IMG/VR virus record: IMGVR_UViG_3300000227_000010
Location: 5,941-41,573 of that record
Source: a virus
Reading direction: 5' to 3' (one strand)
Length of the DNA stretch: 35,633 nucleotides
A program made the translations under genes and the position numbers. Below are positions 3,843 to 12,477 of this stretch, piece by piece (within the stretch, counting starts at the first letter, position 1; the number at the start of each line of letters is the position of its first letter). The notes under the pieces are model-generated. The model was given only the letters and a program-made list of their open reading frames with translations, did no database searches and was not told the origin of the DNA.

Positions 3843-3888
3843 TTACCACCCGATCCGGGGTCCCCTATAATTCAATCATGGTTAGGGG
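3843..3888 (+). promoter_or_regulatory. Sigma70-type promoter with operator-like inverted repeat (copy 1)
   Basis: -35 TTACCA (3843-3848), 17-base spacer, perfect -10 TATAAT (3866-3871). The -10 lies inside CCCCTA-N15-TAGGGG (3862-3888). The same inverted repeat with a similar core (AATCATG followed by RTTAGGGG) recurs over the promoter at 12432. It drives the gene at 3931 after a leader of about 50 bases. Confidence 0.7.
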
Positions 3889-3930: not shown

Positions 3931-4425
3931 ATGAAATTCTACACCGTTAAATCTTCCGCACACCGCGCCGCTAAGCAGGCTGGTCTGGAAAAGGAACAGT
4001 ACGAAATCATCGAGGTCGACGGCAAATTCGGCTTCCAGGTCACCGCCGAAGAAACCCCGGCCGAAGAAATTGAGCAGCCGGTGGTAGGCGAGTTTGTTAA
4101 CTGTCCCCACAGCGGTATCCACCTGAGCAACGGCGACGATGTAAACGGGGAAACCATCAAGCACGAAGAGTTCGAGTGCCTCGGCTGCGGTAAAGAGTTT
4201 GGCCCCGCCATTAAGAAGGCCCGCAAGACTATGGTCACCGCCCACTCCACCGTTGAACGCCCGACTAAGCTGGTATGGCATATCGCGGACGAGATGTTCA
4301 ACGCTAACCCGGAGGTTCGCCGCAAGGACGTGATCGCCGAGTGCGTTAACCGCGGCATCGCTTTCTACACCGCCCGTACCCAGTACCAGCAGTGGCTGGC
4401 CACGAAGAACGGCACCGCTAAGTAA
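3931..4425 (+). CDS. Zinc-knuckle protein with C-terminal paralogous domain (copy 1)
   Basis: 164 aa, AGGAGC seven bases before the ATG. The N-terminal part (KSSAHRAAKQAGL) is not assigned. The middle has C58, H60/H64 and CLGC (C83/C86), a likely single zinc site. Residues about 109-160 (KLVWHIADEMF to TARTQYQQWL) form a domain repeated in the next two genes at 4438 and 5220. Its pattern is W-x-IAD, a basic R/K-rich middle, then TQY-x2-W, which suggests a small helical, perhaps DNA-binding, fold. It is the first gene after the operator-bearing promoter, so early expression is likely. Function is unknown. Confidence 0.75.
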   Translation: MKFYTVKSSAHRAAKQAGLEKEQYEIIEVDGKFGFQVTAEETPAEEIEQPVVGEFVNCPHSGIHLSNGDDVNGETIKHEEFECLGCGKEFGPAIKKARKTMVTAHSTVERPTKLVWHIADEMFNANPEVRRKDVIAECVNRGIAFYTARTQYQQWLATKNGTAK

Positions 4426-4437
4426 CAGGAGGCCAAC

Positions 4438-5118
4438 ATGCGCGACCTCGTAACCCGGGGTCGCCATCCTGCCGACCCTACCGGGGAGGTGTATGGCGAC
4501 ACCCACTGGCCCCTACCGAACTACTATGATAGGGAACCCACCATGAACATTGCAATCAACCGCGAAACCATGACCTTCATCGGGCTTGGCGAGTACCGGG
4601 TGGTGTGGGCCAAAGCTCTTGACGAGGTTGCGCCCGAAGCCATCGTAATCGGGGAAGCTGCGTCCAGCCGGACGTATAGCAAGTTCACGGACATGGAGCT
4701 CAAGCTCCTGTACCGGAACACCACGGGGTTCCAGCACGAGGGCTTTGACTACAACGCTCTGCTCCAGTCCTGCAAGGTCCTTGGCCTCAAGCTGGAGCCC
4801 CTCCCCACCCCTCCGGGGCTGGTCCGGCTACCCAACCGGCCCACCCCGGAAACCCCGGCCCCCACGCCCCGTAAAACCCCCGTGGCGAGGGCGGAGGGGG
4901 CCACCCCTACCCCAAGTGCCCGGCCCAAGCCCGGGACGGCTACCGGGCGTGTCTGGGATATCGCAGATGAGGTTGCTGCCGCGATGCCGGATGCTGACCA
5001 CAAGGCCCAGCGTGCGGAGATCGTCCGCCGCGCCGTGGCCGAGGGGATCAACCCGGCAACCGTTCAGGTCCAGTACGGCAAATGGAAGGGATCTAAAAAC
5101 CAGGTGGCGGGTGCTTGA
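4438..5118 (+). CDS. Protein with C-terminal paralogous domain (copy 2)
   Basis: 226 aa; start chosen because AGGAGG lies 5 bases upstream. An internal ATG at 4543 has no good ribosome site. Residues 36-120 look like a folded domain I cannot name. Residues about 125-160 are a Pro/Ala/Thr-rich linker. Residues about 165-220 (GRVWDIADEVAAAMP to VQVQYGKWKG) are the same domain found in the genes at 3931 and 5220. It lies 12 bases downstream of the first copy, in the same operon. The -35 of the next promoter overlaps its stop codon. Function unknown. Confidence 0.7.
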   Translation: MRDLVTRGRHPADPTGEVYGDTHWPLPNYYDREPTMNIAINRETMTFIGLGEYRVVWAKALDEVAPEAIVIGEAASSRTYSKFTDMELKLLYRNTTGFQHEGFDYNALLQSCKVLGLKLEPLPTPPGLVRLPNRPTPETPAPTPRKTPVARAEGATPTPSARPKPGTATGRVWDIADEVAAAMPDADHKAQRAEIVRRAVAEGINPATVQVQYGKWKGSKNQVAGA

Positions 5119-5143
5119 CCCCGGTACTGGTGTAGGCTAAGAT
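5115..5143 (+). promoter_or_regulatory. Sigma70-type promoter for the third paralogue
   Basis: TTGACC (5115-5120), exactly 17 bases, TAAGAT (5138-5143). The -35 overlaps the stop codon of the upstream gene. A leader of about 70 bases follows before the ATG at 5220. Confidence 0.6.
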
Positions 5144-5152
5144 TCACGTCAT

Positions 5153-5195
5153 GGGCTGGTGCATGTCGCAACGGCCCCTTAACCGGGCACAGCCC
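5153..5195 (+). other. Structured 5' leader hairpin
   Basis: GGGCTGGTGC (5153-5162) pairs with GCACAGCCC (5187-5195), nine base pairs with one bulged G, enclosing a 24-base loop. It lies in the untranslated leader between the promoter at 5115 and the ribosome site at 5208. Possible attenuator or mRNA-stabilising element; it does not match any riboswitch consensus I know. Confidence 0.35.
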
Positions 5196-5219
5196 ACCAT
5201 CTTATCCAGGAGAAATGCA

Positions 5220-5534
5220 ATGAGTGAGAATCAGACCCCGGCCGCTGCGGCCACCAAGGATATCCAGAACGGCATCACCCGTCCGAAGGCGGGTACCAAG
5301 ACTGGCCGCATCTGGGAGATCGCGGACAGCCTGTCTGCACAGGAAGGCAGTCCGGTCTCCCGCAAGAAGGTCCTCGAGGCTGCCATGGCCGAGGACATCA
5401 ATGCCGCCACCGCTGCGACCCAGTACGGCCGCTGGCGCAAGTACCATGGCCTCGGTGCCGAGCCGAAGGAAGCCGCGCCTGCCGCTGAAGGTGGTGAAGG
5501 CTCCGACGTGAGCACCGAAGCCGACAGCGAGTAA
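5220..5534 (+). CDS. Short protein made mostly of the paralogous domain (copy 3)
   Basis: 104 aa from ATG 5220, with AGGAGA six bases upstream. The in-frame ATG at 5151 sits just after the -10 box and has no ribosome site. Residues about 24-78 (GRIWEIADSLS to TQYGRWRKYHGL) are the cleanest copy of the domain shared with the genes at 3931 and 4438. A short N-terminal stretch and an acidic Ala/Glu-rich tail flank it. It has its own promoter and its own terminator, so it is a one-gene transcription unit just ahead of the deazaguanine cassette, consistent with high expression. Candidate small DNA-binding or inhibitor protein; this is inference. Confidence 0.75.
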   Translation: MSENQTPAAAATKDIQNGITRPKAGTKTGRIWEIADSLSAQEGSPVSRKKVLEAAMAEDINAATAATQYGRWRKYHGLGAEPKEAAPAAEGGEGSDVSTEADSE

Positions 5535-5551
5535 CCTCGGCTGGTTGGTGG

Positions 5552-5585
5552 AGAAAGGGCAGGTTCATCCTGCCCTTTCTTTTGC
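5552..5585 (+). terminator. Rho-independent terminator
   Basis: A perfect 12-bp stem, AGAAAGGGCAGG with CCTGCCCTTTCT, loop TTCAT, followed by TTTGC on the + strand. It closes the single-gene unit at 5220-5534 and separates it from the queE promoter. Confidence 0.88.
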
Positions 5586-5654: not shown

Positions 5655-6356
5655 GTGAACCAACCGCTGAACCAGCAGCCCATCGCCAAGCAGAATCTGC
5701 ATGAGCGCGGGCTCCTGGACCTCCACCACATATTCTCGACGATTCAGGGCGAAGGCCCGTTCGCCGGGGTCCCTGCCGTCTTCGTTCGGCTGTTCGGCTG
5801 CAACCTGCGGTGCCCGATGTGCGATACGGATTACACCAGCCACCGCTCGCAGGTCATGCCGCACTTCATCCTGGACTCAGTCAAGGAGATGTCCAGCCCG
5901 TCCAAGCTGGTGGTGTTCAGCGGCGGTGAGCCCATGCGCCAGAACATCGCCCCAGCCGTCCGGCTACTGCTGGAGCATGGCTACCGGGTCCAGATCGAGA
6001 CCAACGGGACCTTGTTTGTCCCGGACCTCCCCTATGACCGGATCACGGTCGTCTGCAGCCCGAAGGCTGGCAAGATCAACGCCGAGCTGGCTCCCCATAT
6101 CACGGCGCTGAAGTATGTACTCCACGCCAACAGCATTGACCCAGAAGACGGCCTGCCCCGCAAGGCGCTGGCGCACCCAGCAGCCCCACGTGTGGCCAGA
6201 CCCCCCGTCGGGTTCAAAGGGACCGTTTACGTGCAGCCCATCGACGTGAACGATCCGATCGAGAATAACCGCCATCTGGACGCCGCCATCCGCAGCTGCT
6301 TGAAGTTCGGTTATACCCTGTGCCTGCAAACGCACAAAATCATCAACCTGGAGTAA
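5655..6356 (+). CDS. queE: 7-carboxy-7-deazaguanine synthase QueE (radical SAM)
   Basis: 233 aa, GTG start 7 bases after GAGGAG. QueE is the radical-SAM enzyme that converts 6-carboxy-tetrahydropterin to 7-carboxy-7-deazaguanine. The substrate loop FSTIQGEGPFAG, the Fe-S cysteines C49, C53 and C56 in FGCNLRCPMC, and the SAM-binding FSGGEP (89-93) are all present. Length fits the family. It is the first gene of a cassette in which all genes lie head to tail with gaps under 10 bases or overlaps. Downstream partners are QueC, QueD and FolE, so the assignment is well supported by context as well as motifs. Confidence 0.93.
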   Translation: MNQPLNQQPIAKQNLHERGLLDLHHIFSTIQGEGPFAGVPAVFVRLFGCNLRCPMCDTDYTSHRSQVMPHFILDSVKEMSSPSKLVVFSGGEPMRQNIAPAVRLLLEHGYRVQIETNGTLFVPDLPYDRITVVCSPKAGKINAELAPHITALKYVLHANSIDPEDGLPRKALAHPAAPRVARPPVGFKGTVYVQPIDVNDPIENNRHLDAAIRSCLKFGYTLCLQTHKIINLE

Positions 6357-6363
6357 TATCATC

Positions 6364-7215
6364 ATGAGTGAGCAACAGTTGGAACTGTTCGAAGGGGAGC
6401 GCAAGCGCACCCGTTCCGAAGTGCCTGTCGCCATCGTTGTCCTGTCCGGTGGCCAGGATTCGACCACTTGCCTCTTCTGGGCTCGCCACTTGGGCTTCGA
6501 AGTGCATGCGGTAACCTTTGACTACAACCAGCGCCATGCGCGCGAGATCGAAGCCGCAACCAAGGTGGCCAAGCTGGCTGGCGTCCTGTCCCACGAGATC
6601 ATCACGATGGGGCCGGTGCTCAAGGGGGCCTCTCCGCTGATCTCGGACAACGAGCTGGAACAATACACAGACCACAAGTCACTGCCGGGCGGGCTCGAGA
6701 AGACCTTCGTACCGATGCGCAACCAGATGTTCCTGACCATCGCGGCGAATCGGGCCTACATCCACAACGCCGAGGCGCTGGTGACCGGGGTCTGTGAGGA
6801 AGACTACGGTGGTTACCCAGATTGCCGGTCGGCCTTCATCCATGCGCTGACCCACGCCTGCAACCTCGGGACCTTTACCGGTGAAGATGGTGCCCCTGCC
6901 TCGCTGGCCATCCTGACCCCGCTGATGCGCCTAACCAAGAAGGCCACCGTGGAACTGGCCCTAACCTTGCCGGGGTGCTACGCTGCGCTGGCCTGGACCC
7001 ACACCAGCTACGACGGGGCTTACCCGCCTGTGGGCCACGACCATGCCACCCTGCTCCGGGCCAAGGGCTTCGAAGAGGCCAATGTGCCGGACCCGCTGGT
7101 GCTGCGCGCCTTCCACGAGGGCCTCATGGACCTGCCGGATTCCCCGAACTACGCGCCGGAGGTGGTCGAGCAGTACCTCGACCTGCTGGCCCTCGATAAC
7201 TGGCTGGAGGTATAA
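6364..7215 (+). CDS. queC: 7-cyano-7-deazaguanine (preQ0) synthase QueC, zinc site lost
   Basis: 283 aa, longer than the roughly 230 aa of bacterial QueC. It makes preQ0 from carboxy-deazaguanine, ammonia and ATP. The PP-loop LSGGQDSTT (27-35), TFDYNQRHA (51-59), TFVPMRNQMF and TGVCEEDYGGYPDCR are all conserved. In E. coli QueC four cysteines bind structural zinc near the C-terminus. Here the matching segment (211-236) keeps SYDG and LRAKGF, but the four positions read S215, V223, D226 and T229. His residues H213, H225 and H227 are nearby. No amidotransferase domain is fused, unlike the Gat-QueC of phage 9g. Function as preQ0 synthase is likely; the lost zinc site is the odd point. Confidence 0.9.
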   Translation: MSEQQLELFEGERKRTRSEVPVAIVVLSGGQDSTTCLFWARHLGFEVHAVTFDYNQRHAREIEAATKVAKLAGVLSHEIITMGPVLKGASPLISDNELEQYTDHKSLPGGLEKTFVPMRNQMFLTIAANRAYIHNAEALVTGVCEEDYGGYPDCRSAFIHALTHACNLGTFTGEDGAPASLAILTPLMRLTKKATVELALTLPGCYAALAWTHTSYDGAYPPVGHDHATLLRAKGFEEANVPDPLVLRAFHEGLMDLPDSPNYAPEVVEQYLDLLALDNWLEV

Positions 7216-7217
7216 AC

Positions 7218-7646
7218 ATGGCTGGCTACAAGGTTCACCGTTATCACGACATCTCCTGCGGGCACCGCGTCTACGGGCATGAAAGCAAATGCCGTCACTT
7301 GCATGGCCACAACTACCGCATCCACTTCACCTGCGTCGCCGAGGACGGGGCGCTGGATGGGATCGGACGGGTCATTGACTTCAGCCAGGTCAAGGCCAAG
7401 CTCTGCATGTGGACCGAGGAGCATTGGGACCACCGCTTCCTCATCTGGGAAGAAGACCCGTTGAAGTCCTACCTCCTGGAGCTGGACCCCACCGTGGTGG
7501 TTGTCCCCTTCAACCCGACGGCTGAGAACATTGCTCAGTACCTCGTGGAAGTCGTCGGTCCGGCCCAGCTGGCCGGCACCGGAATTAAACTCAGCGAAGT
7601 CATGGTCGAGGAGACCATGAAGTGCTTCGCATCTTATGGAGCATGA
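7218..7646 (+). CDS. queD: 6-carboxy-tetrahydropterin synthase QueD
   Basis: 142 aa, two bases after queC. QueD (PTPS family) turns dihydroneopterin triphosphate, the FolE product, into 6-carboxy-tetrahydropterin. Zinc ligands H16 (SCGHRV), H29 and H31 (LHGHNY), the catalytic Cys C25, the WDHRF motif and PTAENIA are all visible. Size fits the family. Its end overlaps the region just before the folE fusion start. Confidence 0.92.
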   Translation: MAGYKVHRYHDISCGHRVYGHESKCRHLHGHNYRIHFTCVAEDGALDGIGRVIDFSQVKAKLCMWTEEHWDHRFLIWEEDPLKSYLLELDPTVVVVPFNPTAENIAQYLVEVVGPAQLAGTGIKLSEVMVEETMKCFASYGA

Positions 7647-7650
7647 ACAC

Positions 7651-8544
7651 ATGTCGAAGCATATTCTGACCAATGCCGCGATCTCGAATCTGGCCATCAC
7701 ATTGGCCGCCCGCATCCACCGTTTGCTGCCGGAGGCCACCAAGGCCTTCGCCATCCCCCGCGGCGGGATTTCGGCAGCCCTTGCAGTCGCTGGCCACCAT
7801 GGTAACCTGCAGCTGGTGGATGACCCGGCCGAAGCGGACCTATTCATCGATGACATCATTGATTCCGGGGCCACCATGCGCCGCTGGTGCGACAAATACC
7901 CGGGCAAACCCTTCTTCGCCTTGATCGACAAGACCGAGAAGGACGGTGAGTTCGGTGACCGCTGGGTGGTCTTCCCGTGGGAGGAGACCGCTGAGGGTGG
8001 GATCGAGGACAACATCCGGCGCCTGCTTCAGTTTGTCGGCGAGGACCCGGAGCGCGGCGGCCTGCTGGAGACCCCTCGCCGTGTGGCCAAAGCATGGGGC
8101 CACTGGTGCAGCGGGTACGGTAAGAATGCCGCGGACATTCTCAAGGTGTTCGAAGACGGTGCCGAGAAGTGCGATGAGATGGTGATCGTCAAGGACATCC
8201 CCATCTACTCCAAGTGTGAGCACCACCTGGCCGACATCTTCGGGACGGTGACCATCGCCTACATCCCGAACGGCAAGATCGTCGGGCTGTCCAAGCTCTC
8301 CCGCTTAGCGGACATGTTCGCCCGTCGGCTCCAGGTCCAGGAGCGGCTCACCAACCAGATCGCCGACGCGCTGGACGAGCACCTGCAGCCGAAGGGGGTC
8401 GGGGTGATTGTCCGAGCCCGTCACATGTGCATGGAATCCCGCGGCATCTGTCAGCAGGGGCACCATACCATCACCAGCGCGCTCCGTGGCGTCCTGAAGG
8501 ACAAGCCGGAGGCCCGCGCCGAGTTCATGGAGCTGGCCAAGTAA
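7651..8544 (+). CDS. folE: Phosphoribosyltransferase-like / GTP cyclohydrolase I (FolE) fusion
   Basis: 297 aa from the ATG at 7651, with GGAG nine bases upstream; an ATG at 7636 inside queD lacks a ribosome site. Residues 1-110 form a type I phosphoribosyltransferase-like domain with AIPRGGI and the PRPP loop LFIDDIIDSGATM (64-76). Residues about 115-297 are GTP cyclohydrolase I, with TPRRVAKAW, CEHH (189-192) and C260 as zinc ligands, and LSKLSRLADMFARR and QVQERLT. FolE makes dihydroneopterin triphosphate for QueD. What the PRTase half does is unknown; a role in purine or GTP supply is speculation. The stop overlaps the dpdA ATG (TAATG). Confidence 0.9.
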   Translation: MSKHILTNAAISNLAITLAARIHRLLPEATKAFAIPRGGISAALAVAGHHGNLQLVDDPAEADLFIDDIIDSGATMRRWCDKYPGKPFFALIDKTEKDGEFGDRWVVFPWEETAEGGIEDNIRRLLQFVGEDPERGGLLETPRRVAKAWGHWCSGYGKNAADILKVFEDGAEKCDEMVIVKDIPIYSKCEHHLADIFGTVTIAYIPNGKIVGLSKLSRLADMFARRLQVQERLTNQIADALDEHLQPKGVGVIVRARHMCMESRGICQQGHHTITSALRGVLKDKPEARAEFMELAK

Positions 8545-9465
8545 TGAAGCTGTATCTCGCGGGTATCTACACTTCGAACTTCCACAAGGAGAGCCAGCTC
8601 TACGCCCGTTTGACGGAGCGCGAGAAGGCCGCCCGGGATGGAGTCCGGTACTACCTGGAGTCCTACCACTATATCCACAAGCAGGCCTACGTCGACAAGA
8701 TCCGGGCCGATGGGGTCAAGGGTGTTTCTGGACTCCGGGGCGTTCTCGGCCTTCACCAAGGGCGTCGAGGTGGATATCCGCGGGTACTGCGATTACATCA
8801 AACGAAACCTAGACATCATCGAAAACGTGGACGGGGCGCTGTGCGCCTCGGTCCTCGACGGTATTGGCGACCCGCTCAAGACCTGGCAGAATCAGATGGC
8901 CATGGAGCAGATGGGGGTCCGCCCCCTCCCCTGCTTCCACTACGGGGAGGATGAGCGGTACCTGGAGTGGTATATCAAGAACTACGACTACATCACGCTT
9001 GGGGGTATGGTACCCATCTCCACCCCGCAGCTGTTCCACTGGTTGGACCGCATCTGGGACAAGTACCTGACCGATGGGTCCGGCCGCCCCCGCCTCAAGG
9101 TCCACGGCTTCGGCCTCACGACACAGACTCTCATGGAGCGGTATCCTTGGTACTCAGTGGACTCGTCTTCGTGGGTGCAGATCGCGGCGAACGGGAATAT
9201 ACTAGTTCCAGGTTTGGGGGCCATGTCGGTGTCCACAAACAGCCCGTCGGCAAAGCAATACAACCGGCACTTGAATACAATCCCAGACCTCCAGCGGGAG
9301 GGGCTAGTCAAACGAATCACGGAGCAGGGATTTGATATTGAGCGCCTCCAGATGGAGTACGTCAGCAGGTGGACTTACAACTGCTGGGCCTTCACCTACA
9401 TCAACGAGAATCTGCTTAACACCATGCCCGGCACCTTCAAGAACGAGCAGATGGAGTTGTTTTAA
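8544..9465 (+). CDS. dpdA: DNA deazaguanine transglycosylase DpdA, frameshifted in this sequence
   Basis: DpdA is a tRNA-guanine transglycosylase relative that exchanges guanine in DNA for a 7-deazaguanine. The first 59 residues (MKLYLAGIYTSNF to KIRADGVK) are encoded from ATG 8544. The remainder (VFLDSGAFSAFTKG onward) lies in the +1 frame from 8722. Dropping one G from the run at 8720-8722 restores a 306-aa protein with the conserved DSGAFSAFT, PCFHYGEDERYLEWY, LGGMVPIS, KVHGFGLTT and YSVDSSSW blocks; Asp in DSGAFS and VDSSSW are the expected catalytic acids. Both halves are well preserved, so a base-call error fits better than decay. Stop and next ATG overlap (TAATG). Confidence 0.85.
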
Positions 9466-12431: not shown

Positions 12432-12477
12432 TTGCATTCCTAGACTACTCCCCCTATAATCTAATCATGATTAGGGG
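12432..12477 (+). promoter_or_regulatory. Sigma70-type promoter with operator-like inverted repeat (copy 2)
   Basis: TTGCAT (12432-12437), 17 bases, perfect TATAAT (12455-12460), embedded in CCCCTA-N15-TAGGGG (12451-12477). An inner perfect palindrome CTAATCATGATTAG (12461-12474) covers the expected start site. Closely matches the element at 3843-3888. Confidence 0.75.

Follow-up and report, generated by a model that had tools for sequence, protein, structure and literature searches.

A conserved domain of putative DNA-binding type in three phage genes adjoining a 7-deazaguanine modification cassette

Phage DNA modification has been studied through its enzymes, with little attention to the way in which a phage reads and regulates its genome when as much as a quarter or more of the guanines are replaced. 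Three adjacent genes, here named A, B and C, lie between a helicase gene and the queE-queC-queD-folE-dpdA genes of a 41.6-kb IMG/VR phage record, and their products have a domain of about 50 residues in common. What these proteins do beside such a cassette is the question raised by the locus. The window analysed comprises bases 5941-41573 of the record (35,633 nucleotides), and its replication/modification region is 92-95% identical to six sequenced phages (Stenotrophomonas, Pseudomonas, Variovorax). The genes of this region follow the order HD-domain gene, Cas4-type exonuclease, helicase, 65-aa gene, A, B, C, queE, queC, queD, folE, dpdA, clamp and DNA polymerase A, with the features of interest listed in Table 1. 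The reading favoured here, to which a probability of roughly 0.45 is given, is that A, B and C serve the 7-deazaguanine cassette as DNA-binding regulators or as DNA-organising proteins. The domain family offers a concrete handle on the question: it accompanies que/dpdA in many phages, is absent from que-less relatives, is untouched by the published genetics that was found, and is carried by CAjan and 9g, phages already in laboratory use.

Table 1. Positions of genes A, B and C, their domains and the neighbouring elements in the window
Feature	Position	Strand	Description
Sigma70-like promoter of A (TTACCA-17-TATAAT)	3843..3871	+	Sequence pattern
Palindrome-like site TCAATCATGGTTAG	3872..3885	+	Directly after -10 of A
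Gene A	3931..4425	+	164 aa; residues 1-37 alpha-beta-beta, then a zinc-ribbon-like loop (degenerate) and the C-terminal domain
Zinc-ribbon-like segment of A (CPHS...CLGC)	4102..4200	+	pLDDT 54-70
C-terminal domain of A	4261..4419	+	Helices 111-125, 131-140, 145-163; pLDDT 94-98
Gene B	4438..5118	+	226 aa; conserved N-terminal extension 4438-4542
N-terminal alpha/beta domain of B	4543..4791	+	Residues 1-83 counted from 4543; confident fold, pLDDT 94-98
C-terminal domain of B	4939..5109	+	Helices 133-147, 153-166, 171-189 counted from 4543; pLDDT 96-98
Sigma70-like promoter of C (TTGACC-17-TAAGAT)	5115..5143	+	A-promoter spacer element inverted (GACCCCGG)
Gene C	5220..5534	+	104 aa within 127-aa frame; domain with charged/low-complexity tails
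Domain in C (TGRIWEIAD...TQYGRWRKYHG)	5301..5456	+	Profile match
Terminator-like hairpin after C	5550..5583	+	14 bp stem, T-rich tail; -23.6 kcal/mol, z -4.8
queE-queC-queD-folE-dpdA cassette	5655..9465	+	Context of A, B and C

A domain common to three old paralogues

An HMM was built from the C-termini of A, B and C and then iterated, and profile search identified the C-terminal ~50 residues of the three proteins as one homologous domain. The window's own 41.6-kb record contains exactly three matches (E 1.6e-31, 1.8e-30 and 1.2e-24), which excludes chance similarity; the common C-terminal domain that the original prediction had described in these adjacent genes, and had proposed to check by such a search, is thereby borne out. 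Approximately 240 copies of the domain, duplicates included, were detected by the iterated HMM in the fetched loci. In the numbering of the aligned C segment, conservation falls on W18, D22, R34, V37, G45, T50, T53, Q54 and W58, with R, T, Q and W near-invariant across A, B and C and with T50 and Q54 essentially invariant in all paralogues. Positions 49, 52, 56 and 57, the last three of which lie in helix 3, are paralogue-specific. The domain has a median net charge of +3 to +4 and a pI of 9.4-9.7. A fixed scaffold combined with variable helix-3 positions may represent the pattern typical of sequence-specific helix-turn-helix (HTH) domains. The common target that had been suggested for the three proteins is made plausible by the near-invariance of helix-3 residues, with the neighbouring positions differing by paralogue.

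Distinct N-termini accompany the domain in A and B, as had been noted at the outset. That of A had been taken for a zinc knuckle, a label which does not hold: in the window the motif is degenerate, with one cysteine missing (CPHS...CLGC vs CPHC...CxxC in relatives), the two CxxC pairs of a zinc ribbon or knuckle are not found in window A, and the zinc-ribbon-like module is absent from several A orthologues. The start of B is placed at 4438 because its extension (RGRHPADPTGE.YGDTHWPLP) is also present in four distant phages (L011, L014, L022 and L059), and the N-terminal alpha/beta domain of this protein matched no family in Pfam or NCBIfam. C had been described as having no N-terminal part; in it, charged tails flank the domain on both sides.

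In a tree of 143 distinct domains, with few columns and rough supports, A (40 rows, support 100/94) and C (49 rows, 97/99) each form a clade, and B is a grade between the two. The order A-B-C recurs in many phages, and among the 44 que-bearing viral loci there are three domain genes in 25 and two in 17, usually before queE. The clades and the recurrence of two or three genes before queE indicate that A, B and C are old and have been kept, and have not been recently shuffled. Recent duplication is ruled out by the tree, where A and C are old orthologous clades, and the earlier picture of duplicated early genes with swapped N-termini was therefore mistaken in its timing. Relative to a Stenotrophomonas phage (L030, 92.6% identical), dN/dS is 0.24 for A, 0.024 for B and 0.16 for C; the values for B and C are within or below the range of the que genes, clamp and helicase, and A is less constrained. 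As judged from these ratios, all three genes are under purifying selection.

Predicted fold and nearest known families

AlphaFold2 models of A and B were obtained from alignments of 108 sequences. In A, an alpha-beta-beta N-terminus (pLDDT 93-97) is followed by a poorly defined middle and by the three-helix C-terminal domain (94-98), and in both models the C-terminal domain is three-helix and HTH-like (pLDDT 94-98). Structure prediction had been recommended in search of a winged-helix-like fold, and it has returned this HTH-like domain, with no Foldseek match for either model at E<0.001. The PDB neighbours of the domain in VIA-align include many HTH and winged-helix proteins, all weak (Z 3-6.7), and the rows (the MCM chain of the OCCM complex, a Pax paired domain, BlaI, PhnF, TetR types and a cullin) are tied between HTH-like folds and other helical ones. 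Matches to many folds are usual for small helical domains. The structural neighbours fit a tri-helical HTH without proving it, and the lack of a clear structural match is no evidence for a new fold. A PDB sequence search with the domain profile returned nothing.

When compared to Pfam and NCBIfam, A, B and C gave nothing significant, with no NCBIfam family at E<=0.1 and a lone insignificant Pfam match, zf-Mss51 on A (E 0.14). The nearest known relative of the domain appears to be the DNA-binding N-terminus of plasmid KfrA repressors, at a level below the family cut-offs. With hhalign, the whole domain was aligned to KfrA_N (PF11740) with a score of 23.9 (P 7.5e-4); none of 100 column-shuffled controls reached this score (highest 14.6) and the reversed control gave 9.9, but an unrelated ORF of the window reached 21.3, so the similarity is a lead and not proof. 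A bacterial relative (L088), the best of the relatives, matches KfrA_N weakly on the same residues (hmmscan E 0.007), with 17.5 bits vs a gathering cut-off of 26.1; the window proteins (P0001, P0003 and P0004) gave no match to KfrA_N at E<=10 and stay below the gathering cut-off. On plasmid RA3, KfrA acts as an HTH autorepressor, binds repeats over its own promoter and has its HTH at residues 29-52 (PMC7783346). The apparent likeness to KfrA of broad-host-range plasmids, a protein that autoregulates and binds the DNA of its own replicon (PMC7783346), extends along the three-helix domain in profile similarity, whereas the HTH of KfrA is N-terminal with a long coiled tail and the domain described here is C-terminal in A and B and mid-protein in C. 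Ala/Lys/Glu-rich tails precede the domain in some relatives (CAjan gp46, Iggy). Since the KfrA_N cut-off is not reached and the architecture is different, A, B and C have not been filed as KfrA. A plasmid search yielded one weak record.

The homing-endonuclease-associated repeat HNH_repeat (PF18780) gives weak matches on the same residues in some relatives, but the best of these has 18.5 bits vs a cut-off of 26 (L149) and none is in the window proteins; it was rejected as a parent family, the profile comparison being near chance and on a single sequence only. B matches PHROG 7864 (E 8.3e-20), and C matches 18634 (E 6.4e-25) and 11298 (E 6e-15). These three and PHROGs 22313 and 21588 contain the domain, but all five are of 'unknown function' and neither unite A, B and C nor link them to the cassette. 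In CAjan (gp46), HD01 and Iggy, the same proteins at the same position before queE bear the label 'transcriptional activator' or 'FtrA domain'. This GenBank label was not adopted, as no Pfam or NCBIfam regulator model matches A, B or C; literature searches on the FtrA label and on NsnA/NsnB gave nothing useful, and the basis of the FtrA annotation was not found. The domain is a real, conserved and undescribed family, of putative DNA-binding type.

Co-inheritance with que/dpdA and the modification chemistry

Genes of the que/dpdA type are present in 44 of the 53 viral loci that were found by the domain motif alone. Most of the remaining nine are contig edges or second copies in records carrying DpdA, and one locus (L080) looks like an integrated element without DpdA. 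Among 50,697 phage records, 152 match C and 228 match DpdA, 154 of the latter over at least 80% of its length. By organism name, in lists that were not matched record by record, the counts for C and DpdA are 40/40 in Escherichia, 30/30 in Pseudomonas, 23/23 in Vibrio and 14/14 in Rhizobium; the DpdAs of 52 Mycobacterium phages are distant ones, and the ten organism names that occur most often in the domain search do not include Mycobacterium. The domain is present, in two to five copies, in all ten DpdA-positive phage records tested (9g, CAjan, Iggy, HD01, VpKK5, ART, S0112, M39, Erebus and cyanophage Yong-L2-223). Neither DpdA nor the domain is present anywhere in the five relatives sharing the helicase-clamp-polymerase module (Septimatrevirus PA16b, Beaumontvirinae Salva and BUCT626, Lokivirus Halfdan and Xanthomonas Langgrundblatt1), in which one to a few small genes separate the helicase from the clamp and polymerase. 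In two cyanophages, DpdA is present and the domain copies are located beyond polA and elsewhere, not before queE, so the link between domain and DpdA is more than a constant arrangement of genes. Common descent in a single phage lineage could account for this co-inheritance, which limits what co-occurrence proves. The co-inheritance of the family with the cassette appears to be a new point; it makes the link to the modification genes stronger than the original prediction had it, and suggests that A, B and C may help the phage to use or control its modified DNA.

One way to account for this pattern would be that A, B and C are accessory subunits, recruiting DpdA or the preQ0 enzymes to the DNA of the phage or setting which contexts are modified. 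The domain is gained and lost with the cassette, all five que-less relatives are without it, and cyanophages keep copies though at another place; moreover, as quoted in PMC8306585, the CAjan modification is site-specific, in GA and GGC contexts. In E. coli, however, plasmid DNA has been reported to acquire 790 dPreQ0 per 1e6 nt from DpdA of phage 9g alone, and 45,000 dG+ per 1e6 nt together with protection from EcoRI (GAATTC) from DpdA plus Gat-QueC, in both cases without proteins of the A/B/C type (PMC6884629). The EcoRI site contains the GA context quoted for CAjan. Given plasmid modification and EcoRI resistance without A, B and C, base insertion and at least the GA context do not depend on them, and a requirement of the three proteins for base insertion is ruled out by these experiments (PMC6884629). 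The DpdAs of mycobacteriophages are also apparently unaccompanied by the domain, and accessory subunits are on balance rather unlikely. The regulator or DNA-organising reading is favoured because, in this published work, DpdA inserts the base without A, B and C.

Two observations concern dpdA itself. The gene of this contig (window 8544-9465) has one extra base near 8720 when compared to the intact gene of phage ply2008005c, and its frame is split after about residue 59, by either a sequencing error or a real loss. In phage Baskent_P4_1 (L140:7107-8027), an intact DpdA that is unannotated in GenBank is 99.7% identical to that of ply2008005c.

Proposed mode of action, control elements and bacterial copies

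Under the regulator or DNA-organising reading, A, B and C would be three ancient paralogous DNA-binding proteins belonging to the phage 7-deazaguanine cassette. Each would dock on DNA through the same C-terminal three-helix, KfrA-N-like HTH domain, with VWxIADxL as helix 1, RKxVxxxC as helix 2 and TAxTQYxxW as the recognition helix, and the N-termini may add partner or oligomer contacts by means of an alpha-beta module with zinc ribbon (A) and an alpha/beta domain (B). Made early from their own promoters, the proteins would act, presumably in concert, as site-specific regulators or DNA organisers in the replication/modification region, where they would time expression and maintain function during guanine exchange by DpdA, as KfrA autoregulates on plasmids. 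The DNA-binding role contemplated in the original prediction is supported by the predicted fold, the basic pI, the KfrA_N similarity and bacterial fusions to nuclease-type and AbrB-like parts, from which we infer DNA binding itself.

Early and strong expression of A, B and C is plausible from the signals in the sequence. AGGAG-type ribosome sites precede all three genes, the region contains 3 promoter-like sites vs 0.7 expected, and the spacer element CCGGGG(T/C)C of the A promoter is conserved in eight phages. The hairpin after C is annotated as a terminator in phage Bhz54, and in 9g and CAjan extra domain copies lie close to where the early rightward genes begin. The candidate operators are few in number and were picked post hoc. 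A perfect palindrome version of the site in the A promoter, CTAATCATGATTAG, occurs at 12461-12474 after polA (2 sites vs 0.44 expected) and is its only recurrence, and a search of viral contigs for a longer promoter pattern gave no further site. A 16-nt element of the A and C promoters, CACCNGNNCCGGGGTC, was rejected as a common operator: its exact form is confined to these two sites, but the element was chosen after the sites had been seen, and the core CCGGGGTC is common throughout the genome (12 vs 3.8 expected). The promoter after polA (window 12455-12477) has TATAAT and CTAATCATGATTAG in common with the A promoter, and could hold an operator of an early repressor.

Copies of the domain in bacteria are rare, with 14 loci from 84,980 species by the strict motif and 3 of 398 Pseudomonadota genomes positive by profile search, two of them marginal. 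One protein (L086) consists of an HSDR_N-like part, the domain and a SeqA-like part; in four loci (L087-L090) the domain is joined to a part that is AbrB-like by eye; another (L149) combines a weak domain match with HNH_2; and in a Vicinamibacterales MAG (L091:9923-12741) the domain forms the N-terminus of NsnA (DUF262/GmrSD_N), adjoining NsnB. These fusions to DNA-acting domains favour DNA binding. Copies without a DpdA of this type occur in bacterial genomes and integrative elements of Azoarcus (L093), Vulcaniibacterium (L096) and Thiobacillus (L098), where L093 (by eye) and L096 belong to integrative elements carrying integrase and primase-like genes.

The near one-to-one occurrence of domain and DpdA and the fusions to nuclease-type HSDR_N, GmrSD_N (NsnA) and HNH_2 would also suit readers or protectors, in which the domain prefers the 7-deazaguanine base, so that the DNA of the phage is located by its own proteins, and such phages by the bacterial nucleases that bear the domain. 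This looks improbable, given the bacterial copies without such a DpdA and a three-helix domain that gives no hint of a base-reading pocket. There is a slight chance that the domain is a dedicated reader of 7-deazaguanine DNA whose two to five phage copies regulate and organise the genome and which was captured by some bacterial nucleases targeting such phages; if the domain does read the modified base, the bacterial nuclease fusions would also be explained. The placement of A, B and C between clamp-PolA and the helicase gene, which is itself preceded by a Cas4-type exonuclease, lends a similarly slim prospect to replication or recombination accessory proteins, acting for example in origin binding or in helicase or clamp loading, but que-less relatives with the same arrangement of helicase, clamp and polymerase manage without the domain. 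Proteins countering host defence, by action on a host nuclease or regulator, had been raised as well and are very unlikely: A, B and C are small and probably early and some extra copies lie near the head of the early operon, but orthologues hold their position and conserved core across phages of hosts that include Escherichia, Pseudomonas, Vibrio and Rhizobium, nothing found supports this role directly, and searches of Pfam, NCBIfam and PHROGs gave no likeness to any known anti-defence protein.

The NsnA/NsnB genes of the Vicinamibacterales MAG represent a defence pair with an added domain of DNA-binding type. Near-identical pairs of domain genes were also observed in contigs labelled as different proteobacterial genera (L080, L094, L095, L096 and L098), which reflects either a widely shared mobile element or contamination; the pair in L096 adjoins an integrase, a primase-like ATPase and a DNA methylase.
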